This document shows, piece after piece, positions 2,477 through 64,000 of a DNA stretch of 64,000 nt. Origin of the DNA: Euzebya pacifica (GTDB lineage Bacteria; Actinomycetota; Nitriliruptoria; Euzebyales; Euzebyaceae); contig NZ_CP031165.1 of assembly GCF_003344865.1 (NCBI RefSeq), positions 1,364,001-1,428,000 on the forward strand. Direction: 5' to 3'. The notes below the pieces were generated by a model. The model worked only from the letters and a program-made list of their open reading frames with translations. It was not told the origin of the DNA and did not search any database. How positions within the stretch are numbered: the stretch's first letter is position 1; each line of letters begins with the position of its first letter. A program made the position numbers and the translations under genes.

Positions 2477-2725
2477 TCAGTCCCTGTCGGCCCCGGCGCC
2501 CGGGGGCAACAGCTTGCTGAGGTTCGCCATCGCGGCCTTCGACGGTGAGGCGGCCGCCTGGTTGGCTTCCTGCAGCTCGGCGTACACCTCCTCGCGGTGC
2601 ACCGCGACCGAGCGCGGGGCCTTGATCCCGATACGGATCTGGTCGCCGCGGACGTCCAACACCGTGATCACAATGTCGTCGCCGATCATGATGCTTTCGT
2701 TGGCGCGGCGGGTGAGCACCAGCAT
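2477..2725 (-). CDS. csrA: CsrA, RNA-binding translational regulator
   Basis: 82 residues, opening [18 protein letters not shown] and keeping Leu4 and Arg44, the two residues central to RNA binding in known CsrA proteins (AVHREEVY contains Arg44). The family works as a domain-swapped dimer that binds ANGGA in hairpin loops and blocks or alters translation. A 30-residue C-terminal tail makes it longer than the 61-residue E. coli protein. It is the last gene of the flhA group, after a stem-loop. Its own ribosome binding region contains ACGGAAGG, so autoregulation is possible. The usual Gram-positive antagonist FliW was not found in this window. Candidate targets are the flagellar leaders listed below. 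Confidence 0.96.
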
Positions 2726-5411: not shown

Positions 5412-7503
5412 CGTTCACCACCCCTACGGTTTCGACCACGAGCTGTGGTCCGATCTCGGCATAGGACAGGACAGGAAGACGGGGGATCACCTGGGAGACC
5501 AGTCGGCGCAGCCCGGGGCGGGCCTGCGGTGAGCAGACGACGACAGCGCTGTCGCCGCGCTGCTCGGCCTGCTCGGCCATGCGGGCGATCTCCATCGCGA
5601 GCTGCTCGGAGACCGAGGGGTCCAGCGCCAGGAAGGTGCCGGCGCTGCCCGGTCGGATGGCCTCGAGGATGCGGTGCTCGGTCATCGGGTCAAGCACGAT
5701 CACCGGCAGGCGGTTGTCCAGGGCGAGGGCGCCGGAGATGGCCGGCCCCAGCATCGACCGGACCGACTCCACCAGTGGTTCGGTCTCCTTGGTGGCCTGC
5801 CCCTTCTCGCTGAGCACCTCGAAGATGCGGACCAGGTCGGTGATCGGCACCTGCTCGTCCAGCAGCTCGGCCAGGACGGTCTGGACGTCGCCGAGGGTCA
5901 GCTGGCTTGCGTCCAGCTCCTCGCCGACGGTGGGGGCCTGGGCCTTGACCAGCTCCGACAGCGTCTTGGTGTCGGAGCGGCTGAGCAGGCGGGAGGCGTT
6001 GGTCCGCACGACCTCGGCGAGGTGGGTGGTGATGACCGACGAGCGGTCGACGACGGTGGCGCCGAGCACCTCGGCCTGCTGGCGGTACTCCATGGGCACC
6101 CAGCGGGCCGGGAGGCCGAAGACCGGTTCGGTGGTCGGCTGGCCCGGCAGGGCGGCGATCCCGTTGGCCGGCTGCACGGCACCGCCGGCGGACAGCGCGG
6201 GCTGGTCGTCGCCGATGACGAGGACGTGGCCGACGGGAGCCTGGCCACGGCCGAGCTCCACGCCGTGCAGGCGGATGGAGTACGTCGACGGGGGCAGCTC
6301 GATGTTGTCGCGGGTGCGGACCAGCGGGATGATGATCCCCAGGTCCTGGGCGACCTTGCGGCGCAGCGCCTTGACCCGGTCCAGCAGGTCGCCGCCACGG
6401 TTGGCGTCGACGAGGTCCATCAGGTCGTAGGAGATCTCCAGCTGCAGGCTCTCGACCTGCACCTCCTGCAGGATCGCCTCGGGTGAGTCCGGGTTGGGCA
6501 TGTGCTCCCGCGCCTCGGCCTCCTTGCGCTCGCGCTCGGCCTCCTCGGCCCGGCGGACGGCCTCCTCGGGGTCCGGCAGCCGGTAAGCCGCGAACAGCAG
6601 AGCCCCACCGACGGCCAGGAACGGGACCATCGGCAGGCCGGGCAGCAGCGACATCAGCGCCACCGCCGCACCACCGAGCCGCATGGAGTTGCGCTGGCGG
6701 CTGAACTGGACGACGACGTCGGAGCCCATGTCGCCAGCGGTTGCGGCGCGGGTCACGATGATGCCCGAGGCGATGGAGATGAGGAGGGCGGGGAGCTGGC
6801 TGACCAGCCCGTCGCCGACGGTCAGCAGCGAGAACGTGCTGACGGCCTCCGCGACGTCCATGCCCTGCTGGAGCACGCCGATGACCAGCCCGCCCAGCAG
6901 GTTGATGACGGTGATGATGACCGATGCCATCGCGTCGCCCTTGACGAACTTCGACGCACCGTCCATCGCCCCGTAGAAGTCCGCCTCGGCGGCGACGTCC
7001 TCACGACGCTTGCGTGCGCCGGCTTCGTCGATCAGCCCGGCGTTGAGGTCGGCGTCGATCGCCATCTGCTTGCCGGGCATGGCGTCCAGGGTGAACCGGG
7101 CACCGACCTCGGCGACGCGTCCCGCACCGTTGGTGATGACCAGGAACTGCACGATGACGAGGATCAGGAAGACGATCAGCCCCACCACGAGGGACCCGCC
7201 GATGACGAAGCTGCCGAACGCCTCGATCACCTTGCCGGCATAGCCGTTCAGCATGATCAGCCGGGTCGTGGAGATGTTCAGCGCCAGGCGGAACAACGTC
7301 AGGATCAGCAGGAGGGAGGGGAAGACGGCGAAGTCCAGCGGACGGCTGACCTGCATCGAGGCGAGGATCACGAGGACGGCACCGGCGATGTTGACCGCCA
7401 GCAGCAGGTCCAGCAGCGCGGTCGGCAACGGCACGACCATCATGACCACGATCATGATGACCGCGGCCGGCACGACGATCGGAGCCCAGGCGCGCTTGCC
7501 CAA
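5389..7503 (-). CDS. flhA: FlhA, flagellar export-gate protein
   Basis: 704 residues if started at the TTG at 7503, which has GAGGA 8 nt upstream and gives the expected hydrophobic start. Upstream in-frame starts would add about 27-107 Arg/Pro-rich residues. The N-terminal half has several membrane helices. The family signature MPGKQMAIDADLNAGLID precedes a cytoplasmic domain that ends with the typical RRLVSQVIPRLPVLSYAEI segment. FlhA forms the nonameric ring of the flagellar type III gate that docks chaperone-substrate complexes. It is the first gene of the flhA-FlhF-PilZ group and lies below a sigma-28-like promoter. Confidence 0.94.
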   Translation of the reverse strand: MGKRAWAPIVVPAAVIMIVVMMVVPLPTALLDLLLAVNIAGAVLVILASMQVSRPLDFAVFPSLLLILTLFRLALNISTTRLIMLNGYAGKVIEAFGSFVIGGSLVVGLIVFLILVIVQFLVITNGAGRVAEVGARFTLDAMPGKQMAIDADLNAGLIDEAGARKRREDVAAEADFYGAMDGASKFVKGDAMASVIITVINLLGGLVIGVLQQGMDVAEAVSTFSLLTVGDGLVSQLPALLISIASGIIVTRAATAGDMGSDVVVQFSRQRNSMRLGGAAVALMSLLPGLPMVPFLAVGGALLFAAYRLPDPEEAVRRAEEAERERKEAEAREHMPNPDSPEAILQEVQVESLQLEISYDLMDLVDANRGGDLLDRVKALRRKVAQDLGIIIPLVRTRDNIELPPSTYSIRLHGVELGRGQAPVGHVLVIGDDQPALSAGGAVQPANGIAALPGQPTTEPVFGLPARWVPMEYRQQAEVLGATVVDRSSVITTHLAEVVRTNASRLLSRSDTKTLSELVKAQAPTVGEELDASQLTLGDVQTVLAELLDEQVPITDLVRIFEVLSEKGQATKETEPLVESVRSMLGPAISGALALDNRLPVIVLDPMTEHRILEAIRPGSAGTFLALDPSVSEQLAMEIARMAEQAEQRGDSAVVVCSPQARPGLRRLVSQVIPRLPVLSYAEIGPQLVVETVGVVNVGNPATV

Positions 7504-40696: not shown

Positions 40697-40723
40697 TGAT
40701 CGGTCGTGACGGCTGTCGGTTTA
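40697..40723 (-). promoter_or_regulatory. Sigma-28-like promoter for flbD-fliL
   Basis: TAAA-N15-ACCGATCA on the minus strand; the -35 part matches the FliA consensus exactly. Confidence 0.65.
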
Positions 40724-40729
40724 GCAGAA

Positions 40730-50684: not shown

Positions 50685-50711
50685 TGATCGGCTCGCAGTG
50701 ACCGGGGATTA
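50685..50711 (-). promoter_or_regulatory. Sigma-28-like promoter for fliI
   Basis: TAAT-N15-GCCGATCA on the minus strand. Confidence 0.6.
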
Positions 50712-50767
50712 GCGCAGCGTCAATGTTTCCGACGACTGGCGTGCCCCGTGGTGCATCCGGGGGGAGG

Positions 50768-56806: not shown

Positions 56807-57099
56807 ACCGTGACGTCCAGGCGGCTGGCCCGTCGGGGCGCGGGCTGGGTCGGCCGGTGCTCGAGCTTGTCCGACACCACCGTGAGGGCCCGGGCCATGA
56901 TCCGTTCGAGCTCGCGTGAGCGCTCGAGCAGCCGGAGCGCACGCTCGACCGCGACCGAGGGCATCGTGCCGAGGTCGTCGGGTGCGAGGAACGGGGGCAC
57001 ACCGGCCGGGTCGCCGCTGCTGATGGCCTCACCGACGGCGTCGAGGCGTGCCTCGTAGCTGTCCAGCGCGGCCTCCCACGCGGTGCCCATGGTTGTCAC
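56803..57099 (-). CDS. Small protein after fliS, FliT-like by position
   Basis: 98 residues from a GTG that overlaps the fliS stop as GTGA; an ATG three codons later is possible. Mostly helical (TAWEAALDSYEARLDAVGEA; RALRLLERSRELERIMARAL). Size, helices and coupling to fliS fit a FliT-type export chaperone, but no diagnostic motif was recognised. It ends within the last codons of the opposing cyclase gene. Confidence 0.65.
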   Translation of the reverse strand: MTTMGTAWEAALDSYEARLDAVGEAISSGDPAGVPPFLAPDDLGTMPSVAVERALRLLERSRELERIMARALTVVSDKLEHRPTQPAPRRASRLDVTV

Positions 57100-57545
57100 G
57101 TGGTGACCGCTTGGAGGGGCTGGGTCGACTGGTGCAGCTGCTGGGCTGATGCCGCCCGGGACGTCAGGTCCTCGGCCAGGCCGGATGCGGCCTGGCGCCA
57201 GGCTGTCGCGAGCGGTTCGACGAGTCCCCGACAGATCTGGATCCGTGCCGCGTCCTTGGTCACGTTGGCCGTGATGAGCTCGTTGTGGAGGAACCGGTAC
57301 AGCGCCAGCAGCGTGGGGCCCCCCGACCACAGGCTGGGGTCGAGGCTGGACTCCAGCTCCAGGACGATGTCCTGGGCATGGGTCAGCTGGGCGTTGACGG
57401 CCTCGAGGTCACGACGCTCCAACGCTTCCCCGGCACGGGTGATGTCCAGGAGCAGGCGGTCGTAGAGCATGACGACGAGCTGCTGGGGGCTGACGGTCTG
57501 GATGGCGTCGGTCACGTACCGGCGTCGGGCGCTGGCGAGCGTCAT
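57096..57545 (-). CDS. fliS: FliS, flagellin export chaperone
   Basis: 149 residues. The YVTDAIQTVSPQQLVVMLYD opening and ALYRFLHNELITANVTKD are typical of FliS. FliS binds the C-terminal D0 helix of flagellin before export. The mini-flagellin at 62368 keeps exactly that region. Confidence 0.92.
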   Translation of the reverse strand: MTLASARRRYVTDAIQTVSPQQLVVMLYDRLLLDITRAGEALERRDLEAVNAQLTHAQDIVLELESSLDPSLWSGGPTLLALYRFLHNELITANVTKDAARIQICRGLVEPLATAWRQAASGLAEDLTSRAASAQQLHQSTQPLQAVTT

Positions 57546-57635: not shown

Positions 57636-59012
57636 TTACTTGGCGGAGTTGGCCTGCAGCTGGGGTAGCTGGCTGGTCAGCCAGTCACCCTGGGCCTGCA
57701 TGCTGGAGAGGGCGACCTCCAGCGCGGAGAACTGGCGTTGCAGGGCCGTTCGTCGCAGCTCGACACGGATGTCGATCGCCGCGATCTGGTCCTCCATCGT
57801 CCGGTTGGTGGACTCCCGTGCCTCGATGGCGGTGGCGAACAGTCCGGTGTTGAGCGTCGTCGCCTGGGAAGCGAGCGACTCCAGCCGCTGGGCCAGGCCG
57901 GGGTTGGCGTCGTCGTCGGACCGGAACATGGCCACCACGTCGTCGGGACGGTCGGCCAACGCCTCGCGGAACGCGGTCTCGTCGAACTCCAGCTTCCCGT
58001 CGCGGGTCGACTCGATGCCGATCAGGCCTGCGGACTGGAAGTGGGTGTTGCCCACGCTGTAGGTCACGGCGTTGAGCAGCTGGGTTCGCAGCGAGCGCAT
58101 CGTGGGGTCGTTGGACAACGATCCCTGCGTGCCCTCCAGACCGCTGTCGAGCGCCTGGTCCATGCCGGTGATCAGCGAGTTGATCGCGTCGACGAGCTCG
58201 CTGACCTGGTCCACCAGGGCGTCGGGGTCGGCGTCGATGGACAGCGTGATGGGGGTGGAGCTCGACTCGGTGACGGTGAAGCTGACACCGGAGATGACGT
58301 CGTTGAAGGTGTTGGTCCCCGAGGTCACCGCATACGCGCCCGGGCCGTCGCCGATGGTGACCTGTGCGTCCCGGCCCTGGGTGAGGACGGGCATGCCGGC
58401 GGCGAACGTGGCGTCGAGGTTCGTCGTGTCGATCGTGAAGGTGCCGTCAGCGCCGCTGGAGCCGGACGTGAGCTGCAGCTTGAAGCCGCTCCCGGTGTTG
58501 ACCGCCTGGGCGGTGACGGGGAGGGCCGACCACGGCTGCGCCGGGTCGTTGATGTTGGCGATCAGGCTGGACAGCGTGCCGTCGCCGGTGTCGACGTCGT
58601 AGTCGGTGCCGTCGACGGTGATGCGGACCGTGGAGTCGGGCGTGGCAACGACGTCGGTGGACGCCGCCGTCGTGCCGCCGGAGACCAGCCGGTGGGTCGC
58701 GGCGAGCTGGTCCACGGTGAAGGTGAACGAGCCCTGCTCGGCACCCGGTGACGCGGTCGCCACGACGCTGTCGGTGGACGTCGACGCCTGCACGGGTACG
58801 AAGTTCTTGGCCGAACCCGAGAGGGCCTTGGACAGCGTCTCGATGTTGTCGAACGCCGAGGAGAACTTCTGCAGCGACGCGATGGCTGCATCGTTGTTGG
58901 AGATCCGCTGTTCGAGTCGGACCTGGGGCTGTCGTTCCAGCTGGATCAGCTGGTTGATGATGCCTGTCGTGTCCAGACCGGACGCGAGGCCATCGATGCC
59001 GAACGTTGCCAC
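57636..59012 (-). CDS. fliD: FliD, filament-cap protein
   Basis: 458 residues, GTG start with GAGGAG upstream. ATFGIDGLASGLDTTGIINQ and the following LIQLERQP give the FliD N-terminus, and a C-terminal coiled coil (QIAAIDIRVELRRTALQRQF) gives the D0 region. It caps the growing filament and helps flagellin fold. Confidence 0.94.
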   Translation of the reverse strand: MATFGIDGLASGLDTTGIINQLIQLERQPQVRLEQRISNNDAAIASLQKFSSAFDNIETLSKALSGSAKNFVPVQASTSTDSVVATASPGAEQGSFTFTVDQLAATHRLVSGGTTAASTDVVATPDSTVRITVDGTDYDVDTGDGTLSSLIANINDPAQPWSALPVTAQAVNTGSGFKLQLTSGSSGADGTFTIDTTNLDATFAAGMPVLTQGRDAQVTIGDGPGAYAVTSGTNTFNDVISGVSFTVTESSSTPITLSIDADPDALVDQVSELVDAINSLITGMDQALDSGLEGTQGSLSNDPTMRSLRTQLLNAVTYSVGNTHFQSAGLIGIESTRDGKLEFDETAFREALADRPDDVVAMFRSDDDANPGLAQRLESLASQATTLNTGLFATAIEARESTNRTMEDQIAAIDIRVELRRTALQRQFSALEVALSSMQAQGDWLTSQLPQLQANSAK

Positions 59013-60471: not shown

Positions 60472-61314
60472 CTAGCCGAGCAGGCTGAGGACGCCCTGGG
60501 GGACGCTGTTGGCCTGGCTGAGCATGGCGGTTCCTGCCTGGGACAGGATCTGGTTGCGGGTGAAGTTGGTCATTTCCTGGGCCATGTCGACGTCGCGGAT
60601 GCGCGATTCGGAGGCGGACAGGTTCTCGGTGGCGACCTGGAGGTTGTTGATGGTGTGTTCGAGGCGGTTCTGGGTGGCGCCCAGGGTTCCGCGGAAGCTG
60701 GAGACGGTGCTGATGGCGGCGTCGATGGTGGCGATGGCGGCGCTGGCGGCGCCGGCGCCCGAGTCGAAGTCGCCGGCCTGGCCCGAGACGAGGGTGTCGA
60801 TGCCCAGGGCTGCGGTCTGCATGTCGGCGAGGGTGATGGCGACGGTCTCGCCGCCGTTGGCGCCGACCTGGAAGGTCAGGCTGTTGGTGCTGTTCATCAG
60901 GCTGGTGCCGTTGAACTTGGTGGTGTCGGCGATCTGCTCGATGGCGCCGACGAGCTCGTCGAGCTCGGCCTGTGCTGCGGCGACGGAGGAGCCGGTGTGG
61001 CCGCCGTTGGCGCCGGTGTTGGAGGCCTGGACGGCGAGGTCGCGGGCTCGCTGCAGCATGGAGTGGACCTCGGTGAGGGCTCCTTCTGCGGTCTGGACGA
61101 CGCTGATGCCGTCCTGGGCGTTGCGGGTGGCGACCTTGAGGCCGCCGACCTGTGAGCGCAGGTTCTCGCTGATGACGAGGCCAGCGGCGTCGTCGCCGGC
61201 GCGGTTGATTCGGAAGCCCGAGGAGAGCTTCTCGAGGGACTTGCCGAGCGAGTTCTGGGTGCTCGACAGGTTGCGATGGGCGTTCATCGCCATGGTGTTC
61301 TGATTGATGCGCAT
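60472..61314 (-). CDS. fliC: Flagellin 2
   Basis: 280 residues from the ATG at 61314 with AAGGAGGAG upstream. Nearly identical to flagellin 1 over the first about 125 and last about 75 residues; the short centre differs (GETVAITLADMQTAALGIDT). D0/D1 only. It lies second from the end of the flagellin array. Confidence 0.95.
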   Translation of the reverse strand: MRINQNTMAMNAHRNLSSTQNSLGKSLEKLSSGFRINRAGDDAAGLVISENLRSQVGGLKVATRNAQDGISVVQTAEGALTEVHSMLQRARDLAVQASNTGANGGHTGSSVAAAQAELDELVGAIEQIADTTKFNGTSLMNSTNSLTFQVGANGGETVAITLADMQTAALGIDTLVSGQAGDFDSGAGAASAAIATIDAAISTVSSFRGTLGATQNRLEHTINNLQVATENLSASESRIRDVDMAQEMTNFTRNQILSQAGTAMLSQANSVPQGVLSLLG

Positions 61315-61447: not shown

Positions 61448-62269
61448 CTAGCCGAGCAGGCTGAGGACGCCCTGGGGGACGCTGTTGGCCTGGCTGAGCA
61501 TGGCGGTTCCTGCCTGGGACAGGATCTGGTTGCGGGTGAAGTTGGTCATTTCCTGCGCCATGTCGACGTCGCGGATGCGCGACTCCGACGCGGACAGGTT
61601 CTCCGCGGACACCTGCAGGTTGTTGATGGTGTGCTCGAGGCGGTTCTGGGTGGCACCCAGGGTCCCGCGATACGTCGACACCTCAGCGATGGCGGAGTCG
61701 ATCCCCGCGATCGCGCCGGAGGCGTCGGCGGTCAGGTCGAGGGCGTTGATGGTCAGGCCGCTCGTGATGGTCATGTCAGCGGTCGCCAGGGTGAGGGTCT
61801 CGCCGCCGTTGGCCCCGACCTGGAAGGTCAGGTTGGCCGACGCGCCGCTCATCAGGCTGGTGCCGTTGAACTCGGTGGTGGATGCGACCTGCTGGATGGC
61901 ATCCCGCAGCTCGGTGAACTCCGCCTGGGCCGCGGCAACGGACGCGCCGCCGAGGCCACCGTTGGCGCCGGTGTTGGACGCCTGGACGGCCAGGTCACGC
62001 ATGCGCTGCAGCATCGAGTGGACCTCGGTGAGGGCACCTTCAGCGGTCTGGACGACGGAGACGCCGTCCTGGGCGTTGCGGACAGCGGTCTTGATGCCGC
62101 TGACCTGGGAGCGCAGGGTCTCGGAGATGACGAGGCCGGCGGCGTCGTCACCCGCTCGGTTGATCCGGAAGCCCGACGAGAGCTTCTCGAGGGACTTGCC
62201 CAGCGAGTTCTGGGTGCCGGACAGGTTGCGATGGGCGTTCATCGCCATCGTGTTCTGGTTGATTCGCAT
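61448..62269 (-). CDS. fliC: Flagellin 3
   Basis: 273 residues, the shortest full-length copy, ATG with AAGGAGGAA upstream. Same D0/D1 ends, with some own substitutions (SETLRSQVSGIKTAVRNAQD) and a distinct centre (TADMTITSGLTINALDL) that resembles flagellin 4. No sigma-28-like promoter was found directly upstream; it may be read from the mini-flagellin promoter. Confidence 0.95.
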   Translation of the reverse strand: MRINQNTMAMNAHRNLSGTQNSLGKSLEKLSSGFRINRAGDDAAGLVISETLRSQVSGIKTAVRNAQDGVSVVQTAEGALTEVHSMLQRMRDLAVQASNTGANGGLGGASVAAAQAEFTELRDAIQQVASTTEFNGTSLMSGASANLTFQVGANGGETLTLATADMTITSGLTINALDLTADASGAIAGIDSAIAEVSTYRGTLGATQNRLEHTINNLQVSAENLSASESRIRDVDMAQEMTNFTRNQILSQAGTAMLSQANSVPQGVLSLLG

Positions 62270-62332
62270 ACCCGTTTCCTCCTTGAAGTGGGTCTACTGG
62301 CGTCCCGCACCCGGGTCGGGGCGGGTGACGGC

Positions 62333-62348
62333 GACCAATCCGTTGGTC
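62333..62348 (-). promoter_or_regulatory. CsrA-type hairpin in the flagellin 3 leader
   Basis: GACCA pairs with TGGTC around ACGGAT. A competing stem GGTGAC/GTCACC (62324-62351) overlaps it, so two folds are possible. Confidence 0.55.
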
Positions 62349-62367
62349 ACCGCCCCTTTCCGAACGG

Positions 62368-62592
62368 TCAGTCCGGCAGCGAAAGGACTCGCTGCTGGAC
62401 GGCGTCGGCCCGCGACAGCACCTTGGTGCCGGCTCGGGAAAGGATCTTGGTGCGGGTCAGGGTCGACAGCGCCGAGGCCAGGTCGACGTCGCTGATGCGT
62501 GATGTCGAGGCCGTCAGGTTCGCTGTCGCGACCCGCAGGTTGGCGACTTGCCGATGGGCGCGTGACGCCATCGCGTTCGCATGGGTGCGCAT
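62368..62592 (-). CDS. Mini-flagellin: D0 ends joined, D1 and centre deleted
   Basis: 74 residues from the ATG at 62592. The first 14 residues (MRTHANAMASRAHR) align with the flagellin N-terminus. From about residue 16 the protein aligns with the last 58 residues of its neighbours: VANLRVATANLTASTSRISD against INNLQVATENLSASESRIRD, then TRTKILSRAGTKVLSRADAV and an LSLPD end. So some 200 residues are missing in frame. It keeps its own sigma-28-like promoter and two CsrA-type hairpins, and has no stop or frameshift, which argues against simple decay. It keeps the region that FliS binds. Possible roles are a chaperone decoy, a filament end-piece or a polymerisation modulator; a recent in-frame remnant is the alternative. 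Confidence 0.8.
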   Translation of the reverse strand: MRTHANAMASRAHRQVANLRVATANLTASTSRISDVDLASALSTLTRTKILSRAGTKVLSRADAVQQRVLSLPD

Positions 62593-62651: not shown

Positions 62652-62671
62652 GCGATCAATCCGTTGATCGC
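62652..62671 (-). promoter_or_regulatory. CsrA-type hairpin at the 5' end of the mini-flagellin leader
   Basis: GCGATCA pairs perfectly with TGATCGC around ACGGAT. It starts about 3 nt from the predicted transcription start. Confidence 0.6.
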
Positions 62672-62680
62672 TCATGACCT

Positions 62681-62707
62681 TCATCGGTAGGTCACGGCTC
62701 GAGCTGA
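62681..62707 (-). promoter_or_regulatory. Sigma-28-like promoter for the mini-flagellin
   Basis: TCAG-N15-ACCGATGA on the minus strand, immediately after the flagellin 4 terminator. Confidence 0.55.
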
Positions 62708-62720
62708 GCAAAACCTTCGA

Positions 62721-62750
62721 CGCCCCGTCCGAGCAGGCTCGAACGGGGCG
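62721..62750 (-). terminator. Terminator after flagellin 4
   Basis: An outer stem CGCCCCGT/ACGGGGCG and an inner stem CGAGC/GCTCG around AG, followed on the minus strand by a TTTT run. It is the clearest intrinsic terminator in the window. Confidence 0.75.
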
Positions 62751-62789: not shown

Positions 62790-63626
62790 TTACTGCTGCA
62801 GCAGGCTGAGGACGCCCTGCGGGACCTGGTTGGCCTGGGCGAGCATCGCGGTGCCGGCCTGGGACAGGATCTGGTTGCGGGTGAACGTCGACATCTCTGC
62901 GGCCATGTCGGCGTCGCGGATGCGCGACTCCGAGGCGGACAGGTTCTCTGCGGCCACCTGGAGGTTGTTGATCTGGTGCTCGAGGCGGTTCTGGGTTGCG
63001 CCGAGCGTGCCGCGGTAGGTCGACACCGTGCCGATGGCGGCGTCGATCGTCGAGATCGCGGCCGCAGCGGCGCCGGTCGCCGAGGTGAAGTCGATGCCGT
63101 TGATGCCGAGGCCCGTGGTGATGGTCATGTCGGCGGTTGCGACGTCGATCGTCTCGCCGGAGTTGGCGCCGACCTGGAACGTCAGGGTCGCCGATCCGCT
63201 GAGCAGCGAGGTGCCGTTGAACTTGGTGCTCTGGGCGATCTGGTCGACCGCGTCCACGAGCTGGGTGACCTCGGCCTGTGCGGCAGCCACCGAGGCGCCA
63301 CCGAAGCCGCCGTTGGCGCCCTCGTTGGAGGCCTGGACGGCGAGGTCGCGGATGCGCTGCAGCATCGCGTGGACCTCTGTCAGCGCACCTTCTGCGGTCT
63401 GCACCACGGAGATGCCGTCCTGGGCGTTGCGCACGGCGGTCTGGACACCACCGATCTGCGAGCGCAGGTTCTCGGAGATGACCAGGCCGGCGGCGTCGTC
63501 GGCCGCACGGTTGATGCGGAAGCCCGAGGAGAGCTTCTCCAGGCTCTTGCTGAGCGCGCCTTGGGTCTGCGACAGATTCCGGTGGGAATTCGTCGCCATG
63601 ATGTTCTGATTGATCCGCAGGCCCAT
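62790..63626 (-). CDS. fliC: Flagellin 4
   Basis: 278 residues from the ATG at 63626. It opens MGLRINQNIMATNSHRNLSQ and ends QANQVPQGVLSLLQQ. It is the most diverged full-length copy and the first in the array. The ribosome binding site is weak (GGTGG 13 nt upstream). D0/D1 only, with a short centre (GETIDVATADMTITTGLGIN). It has its own sigma-28-like promoter and a strong leader hairpin. Confidence 0.94.
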   Translation of the reverse strand: MGLRINQNIMATNSHRNLSQTQGALSKSLEKLSSGFRINRAADDAAGLVISENLRSQIGGVQTAVRNAQDGISVVQTAEGALTEVHAMLQRIRDLAVQASNEGANGGFGGASVAAAQAEVTQLVDAVDQIAQSTKFNGTSLLSGSATLTFQVGANSGETIDVATADMTITTGLGINGIDFTSATGAAAAAISTIDAAIGTVSTYRGTLGATQNRLEHQINNLQVAAENLSASESRIRDADMAAEMSTFTRNQILSQAGTAMLAQANQVPQGVLSLLQQ

Positions 63627-63661
63627 TTGGGTTGACCACCAGTCGAATGACGTTGACGTTG

Positions 63662-63696: not shown

Positions 63697-63723
63697 TCAT
63701 CGGCTGGGCCCGCAACCAGTTGA
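63697..63723 (-). promoter_or_regulatory. Sigma-28-like promoter for flagellin 4
   Basis: TCAA-N15-GCCGATGA on the minus strand. Confidence 0.65.
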
Positions 63724-64000
63724 GGCAACCACACGAGGTTTTCGGGCAGGCGGACCGACCGGTGGTCGCCGGCTCGTCCGTGAGGTGTGTTGGTGCATGG
63801 CGTCGATGCCTCGCGACACGTCGCGGTCGATGCCGATGCACGGCCTGTGACACGTCCTCGGTCGGCCACCGTCCCTGGTGGCACGCGTGCGATGACGCGG
63901 GTGCCCGAGTCAGACCCCGGGCGGGGTTGCCAGACTTCCTCCTTGAAGCTGATGGCGATGACGTGGCTGCCGCACCCTGGGGTCGGCGGCCGGTGACCAG
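63724..64000. other. Right-edge region upstream of flagellin 4, no gene recognised
   Basis: No convincing reading frame was found. The minus strand holds two more hairpins with CsrA-type loops: GCCACC/GGTGGC around AGGGAC at 63865-63882, and CTTC/GAAG around AAGGAG at 63935-63948. The second shares CTTCAAGGAGGAA with the flagellin 3 leader, but no start codon or flagellin-like sequence follows it. They may be remnants of a lost flagellin or belong to a gene outside the window. Confidence 0.4.

Follow-up and report, generated by a model that had tools for sequence, protein, structure and literature searches.

FliS binds the C-terminal D0 region of flagellin, and shortening that end abolishes binding (PMC5466977, PMC6070490); in Campylobacter, binding is sensitive to the last 10 flagellin residues (PMC5466977). 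In Helicobacter pylori, the FliS co-chaperone HP1076 docks on FliS at the site used by flagellin (PMC7248283). At the RNA level, the Campylobacter flaA leader carries two hairpins with GGA hexaloops that are bound by CsrA (PMC4894983), while in B. subtilis CsrA occludes the Shine-Dalgarno sequence of hag under FliW control (PMC6529632).

The gene described here, a "mini-flagellin" of Euzebya pacifica located in a window of 64,000 nucleotides (the whole stretch of DNA analyzed), is built from known parts and restricted so far to two related marine species. With the neighboring flagellins (FliC/Hag) it shares their first 14 and last 57 residues, the leader hairpins, and a sigma28-type promoter, but it has neither the D1 nor the central domain, has lost most of ND0, is basic instead of neutral, and evolves much faster. 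Its residues up to 73 align by sequence to the flagellin stretch bound by FliS in known complexes (1ory, 6lea, 6ch3, and 5maw); the flagellin chains in those structures are full-length or fragments made for experiment, whereas the mini-flagellin is a natural gene for little more than that stretch. HP1076 would resemble it in using that docking site, but is not a truncated flagellin gene. The leader hairpins with GGA loops and CsrA acting at the Shine-Dalgarno sequence recall the Campylobacter jejuni flaA leader and the B. subtilis Hag-FliW-CsrA circuit, and FliW and CsrA are both encoded by this genome as well; unlike in those two organisms, here one such leader stands before a mini-flagellin, with separate hairpin pairs for most genes of the array. 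The open-access literature gave no natural gene of this kind ("mini-flagellin" in the top paper denotes engineered chimeras), in line with the sequence-only reading of this DNA, which knew of none.

The mini-flagellin gene within the flagellin array

Euzebya is placed in the class Nitriliruptoria of the Actinomycetota. The genome has 6,371,455 bases in two contigs (the first of 5,799,875), and E. pacifica is listed as flagellated (PMC10746217). The mini-flagellin sits in an array of six full flagellins, flanked by fliD and fliS on one side and a sigma-factor gene on the other; outside the array, the genome has one further flagellin and an FlgL-type gene. The main features are the following:

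62368 to 62592, minus strand: mini-flagellin coding sequence, with an ATG start and 74 codons, in frame and free of internal stops
61448 to 62269, minus strand: downstream full-length flagellin, 273 aa
62790 to 63626, minus strand: full-length flagellin on the upstream side, 278 aa; a sigma28-like site of its own lies at 63697 to 63724
57096 to 57545, minus strand: FliS, the predicted partner (Pfam PF02561, 9.6e-30)
57636 to 59012, minus strand: FliD (Pfam)
2567 to 2725, minus strand: CsrA (PF02599)
L032:8364-9422: sigma-factor gene beside the flagellin array, probably fliA

Two of the array flagellins (60472 to 61314 and L032:6220-7062) encode nearly identical proteins, which suggests a recent duplication or gene conversion.

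The 74-residue translation, MRTHANAMASRAHRQVANLRVATANLTASTSRISDVDLASALSTLTRTKILSRAGTKVLSRADAVQQRVLSLPD, consists of about 14 residues from the flagellin N terminus followed by the last 57 to 58. Its first 14 residues, MRTHANAMASRAHR, match the flagellin sequence MRINQNTMAMNAHR at 8 of 14 positions, and residues 18 to 74 give a gapless alignment with the final 57 residues of the neighboring flagellins. Flagellin_C (PF00700) covers residues 7 to 72 (1.1e-13, 51.7 bits against a cut-off of 23) and is the sole Pfam family matched above its cut-off; Flagellin_N (PF00669, ND0/ND1) gave no match, about 14 residues of that end being left. The open reading frame, the Pfam match, and the gapless alignment thus agree with the original description of an in-frame gene made of the two flagellin ends with the middle gone.

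The protein differs from its orthologue in a congener (G002, which we take to be Euzebya rosea) in its last residues: it ends in SLPD in E. pacifica (G000) and in LLLE in G002, compared to SLLG or SLLQ in the flagellins. Net charge is +7 in G000 and +5 in G002, against 0 or -1 in all flagellins examined, and the polar positions are shifted toward arginine and lysine. The best single-sequence AlphaFold model (mean pLDDT 84.5; 64 to 67 for the other models) has helices at residues 2 to 30 and 35 to 70, and a Foldseek search with this two-helix model returned zero matches.

Promoter and leader hairpins

The region upstream of the mini-flagellin and that directly behind it contain the following elements:

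62722 to 62749, minus strand: strong hairpin, rich in G+C and conserved in G002, behind the upstream flagellin gene; a 3' end or weak terminator
62681 to 62708, minus strand: sigma28-like promoter CTCA-N17-CCGATGA, upstream of the mini-flagellin
62652 to 62671, minus strand: first hairpin of the leader, resembling CsrA site 1: GCGATCAACGGATTGATCGC, A(N)GGA in the loop
62596 to 62618, minus strand: second leader hairpin, CACGGAGG, with the Shine-Dalgarno within an ACGGAG hexaloop, CsrA site-2-like
62330 to 62351, minus strand: CsrA-type hairpin of the next flagellin's leader, shortly past the mini-flagellin stop codon

The exact promoter pattern CTCA-N17-CCGATGA occurs four times in the 6.37-Mb genome, and two of these sites lie within the flagellin cluster, directly preceding the mini-flagellin and the flagellin before it; both are retained in G002. 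The promoter had been called dedicated, and the sigma28-like site is indeed there, but the 98 nt that separate the mini-flagellin stop from the next flagellin contain no such site; the promoter is therefore unlikely to be the gene's own and probably serves a longer unit. The mini-flagellin would then likely open a transcription unit running into full flagellins, with the flagellin at 61448 to 62269 probably co-transcribed. The supposed upstream terminator fared similarly: the hairpin is strong and conserved, but its T-run is poor and the terminator scan made no call, nor did the scan for sigma70 promoters. Elsewhere in the window, CTAA-N17-CCGATCA-type sites on the minus strand at 40697 to 40724 and 50685 to 50712 are possibly sigma28 promoters of other flagellar operons.

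Both leader hairpins, which the sequence-only reading had pointed out, are present, of CsrA type, and predicted with the same fold in G000 and G002; the core of the second, TTTCACGGAGGAAACGGG, is identical between the two species. Across the eleven first hairpins of the array in the two genomes, 89.6% of cells were paired, with 18 double changes, a level of covariation reached by 0 of 500 shuffles. The second hairpin has an A(A/C)GGAG hexaloop and a small closing stem that co-varies more weakly across the array leaders. The folds as a whole exceeded shuffled sequence in stability by only a modest margin (z about -1.35), and no Rfam family was found within 56 to 64 kb. Six other leaders of the array carry CsrA-type hairpins. 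CsrA presumably binds the mini-flagellin leader.

No Shine-Dalgarno can be seen in front of the flagellin that begins at 63626 (MGLRINQN), nor is there a hairpin pair near its start (63615 to 63640). About 300 nt upstream of it, an orphan flagellin-type leader, well conserved in G002, consists of a hairpin, GTGACCGACGGACTGGTCAC, and a Shine-Dalgarno, cttcaaggaggaag, with no start codon behind (63937 to 63950; L032 about 5990 to 6020). It may have belonged to a flagellin since lost, or may act as an independent RNA that binds CsrA.

Distribution, selection, and the possibility of a relic

A single orthologue was identified:

G002:C1:275637-275858: mini-flagellin orthologue, 74 aa, intact, 77% identity

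Gene order in G002 is the same (fliS, fliD, three flagellins, the mini-flagellin, three flagellins, and the sigma factor), as are the length and the stop position, and the gene has no stop or frameshift in either species, as had been claimed for E. pacifica from the absence of disabling mutations. That a congener has an intact orthologue of equal length in synteny indicates that the gene is more than a chance product. The sequence-only reading had made its case depend on the gene being neither missing nor decayed in close relatives; it is intact in G002 but missing from the other two congeners, G001, which is flagellated and has one flagellin and one weaker, FlgL-type match, and G003, in which no flagellin, CsrA, or FliW was found either. 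Its absence from the flagellated G001 points to a lineage-specific invention and not a widespread gene.

Among 66 genomes of the class and 396 of the phylum, all other full matches were in long flagellin frames, save pieces at contig edges; a full-length match in a short frame of G065 turned out to be a normal flagellin cut at a contig edge. Scans of genome and viral collections, from which the genome of the window and those closest to it may be absent, found no mini-flagellin. Neither did a pattern scan of 84,980 species genomes, which covers minis with canonical motifs and a 20- to 30-residue gap, each half of the pattern detecting three of the four full flagellins within the window.

That the gene is a decaying relic, a flagellin with an in-frame central deletion drifting and open by luck, is possible and remains a serious rival. 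Paralogous arrays readily yield such deletions, and this one is confined to two species. The 31 differences at sense positions between the two genes are spread nearly evenly over the codon positions (10/8/13), and the pair has a dN of 0.12 to 0.14 and a dS of 0.20 to 0.32, compared to a dN of 0.003 to 0.047 in neighboring genes. Residue change amounts to 23%, against 0.7 to 8% in neighboring proteins, i.e., three- to thirty-fold faster. A relic would also account for the promoter, conserved solely because it drives the next flagellins, the first of which has no promoter-like site ahead of it.

The orthologue comparison asked for by the sequence-only reading gave an omega point estimate below 1 for the two species' copies in all models tried, but its significance depended on the codon frequencies. 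With F3x4 frequencies, tip omega was 0.23 (2dlnL 11.7) and older-branch omega 0.11 (2dlnL 4.75); with flat or intergenic frequencies, tip omega was 0.47 to 0.48 (2dlnL 3.1, p about 0.08) and that of the older branch near 1. The p of about 0.08 under F1x4 frequencies suits a relic. Over the codon-frequency models, the tip thus ranges from 0.23 to 0.48 (p 0.0006 to 0.08) and the stem from 0.11 to 1.06, so that purifying selection is likely but not firm.

Other measures speak against a relic. The 225 nt of the mini-flagellin are free of indels, whereas the intergenic alignments of this cluster, about 1,089 columns with the f2-f1 spacer omitted as not clearly orthologous, contain 20 such events. 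In a neutral simulation, 39 +/- 2.6 amino acid changes from flagellin were expected and 29 are observed, and the chance of staying stop-free was about 0.3 after the two species separated and 0.06 to 0.09 along the older branch. In the C-terminal helix, the two proteins retain 16 of 17 and 17 of 17 hydrophobic positions, where neutrality predicts about 11 (some 6 losses); P was 0.007 or less with each of three different flagellins as reference, and 0.008 and 0.001 in a control matched on codon positions 1 and 2. This control lessens, but does not remove, the caveat that part of the divergence could have accrued before the deletion, under the constraint of a full flagellin. The hairpin with the Shine-Dalgarno is fully conserved, and a 50-nt block of the coding sequence (62476 to 62525) shows no difference between the two species even at synonymous positions (P about 0.005 for a run of this kind). 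Purifying selection on the mini-flagellin is likely but weak, and the lack of indels, the deficit of residue changes, and the hydrophobic retention favor a maintained protein.

A proposed FliS ligand and its alternatives

The explanation that we prefer, plausible if somewhat short of an even chance, is that the mini-flagellin is a maintained, fast-evolving small protein that binds FliS and tunes flagellin export under sigma28/CsrA control. A central in-frame deletion of a flagellin would have occurred once, in the ancestor of the two Euzebya-like species, and then been kept. The gene would be transcribed from the sigma28-type promoter, with the two CsrA hairpins gating its translation as for the full flagellins; under this common control, it would be made when flagellin is made. 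The product, predicted to be a basic, amphipathic helical peptide of 74 aa retaining the hydrophobic face of the flagellin C terminus, would most likely bind FliS, either in competition with flagellin or as an accessory ligand, and so tune how much FliS is left free for carrying flagellins to the export gate. More specifically, and tentatively, in the sense of the FliS titration that the sequence-only reading had suggested, a flagellin paralogue reduced to its chaperone-binding helix may have been kept as a dedicated small regulator: a self-derived FliS decoy, made alongside flagellin under their shared sigma28/CsrA control, that determines how much flagellin enters the export machinery. The reading frame, its orthologue, the leader elements, the kept hydrophobic face, and the change in charge are established, whereas expression, binding of CsrA and FliS, and the effect on export are inferred.

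The retained helix with its hydrophobic face fits a FliS ligand, and fliS is encoded in the same cluster. The mini-flagellin keeps the FliS region and is without most of the FliW region, and a FliS ligand appears to be the most economical function. The original statement that it keeps the FliS-binding region holds for the C-terminal D0 that FliS needs elsewhere, but less so for the last residues, which are altered; the SLPD end in G000 counts against strong FliS binding. The rapid protein change, the even codon-position differences, the model-dependent omega, and the restriction to two genomes also weigh against this reading.

It is rather unlikely that the 5' segment, with its two CsrA sites and short open reading frame, acts as RNA, either as a CsrA sponge or as a first cistron whose translation is coupled to expression of the downstream flagellins, with the peptide being secondary. 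Conservation is among the highest in the leader hairpins and around the start, the gene probably opens its transcription unit, and the Campylobacter flaA mRNA leader titrates CsrA (PMC4894983), but hydrophobic retention in the protein would not be expected, and an extra sponge would add little where six other leaders already carry such hairpins.

Incorporation into the filament and binding to FliW are less likely than a FliS ligand, a relic, or an RNA or leader function. An exported minor subunit, a D0-only filler in the filament or at the hook/cap junction, would agree with the retained ND0 start and CD0 and with the flagellin-like regulation, but is improbable given that most of ND0 and the whole of D1, which make the subunit contacts, are missing, and that a net charge of +7 would come to lie in the filament core, unlike in every flagellin examined; the earlier suggestion of a specialized filament end found no support, the protein lacking the parts with which flagellins polymerize. 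A FliW ligand that keeps CsrA free and dampens flagellin translation is the most improbable and was rejected as the main idea: the genes of the FliW-CsrA switch are present, and one FliW-protected stretch of Hag (residues 240 to 260) has its counterpart within the retained segment (PMC6070490), but FliW binding requires the N-terminal part of flagellin (Hag residues 11 to 34 and 50 to 72; ND0/ND1 of FlaA) (PMC6070490, PMC5466977), which is mostly missing here.

Even if the mini-flagellin is a relic, the array clearly illustrates how leader hairpins of CsrA type are copied among paralogues and co-vary there. If the peptide does bind FliS, duplicated flagellins can become regulators of their own export by keeping the chaperone-binding helix alone, which would add a simple layer of control above the FliW-CsrA switch in a phylum whose flagellar regulation has been little studied.
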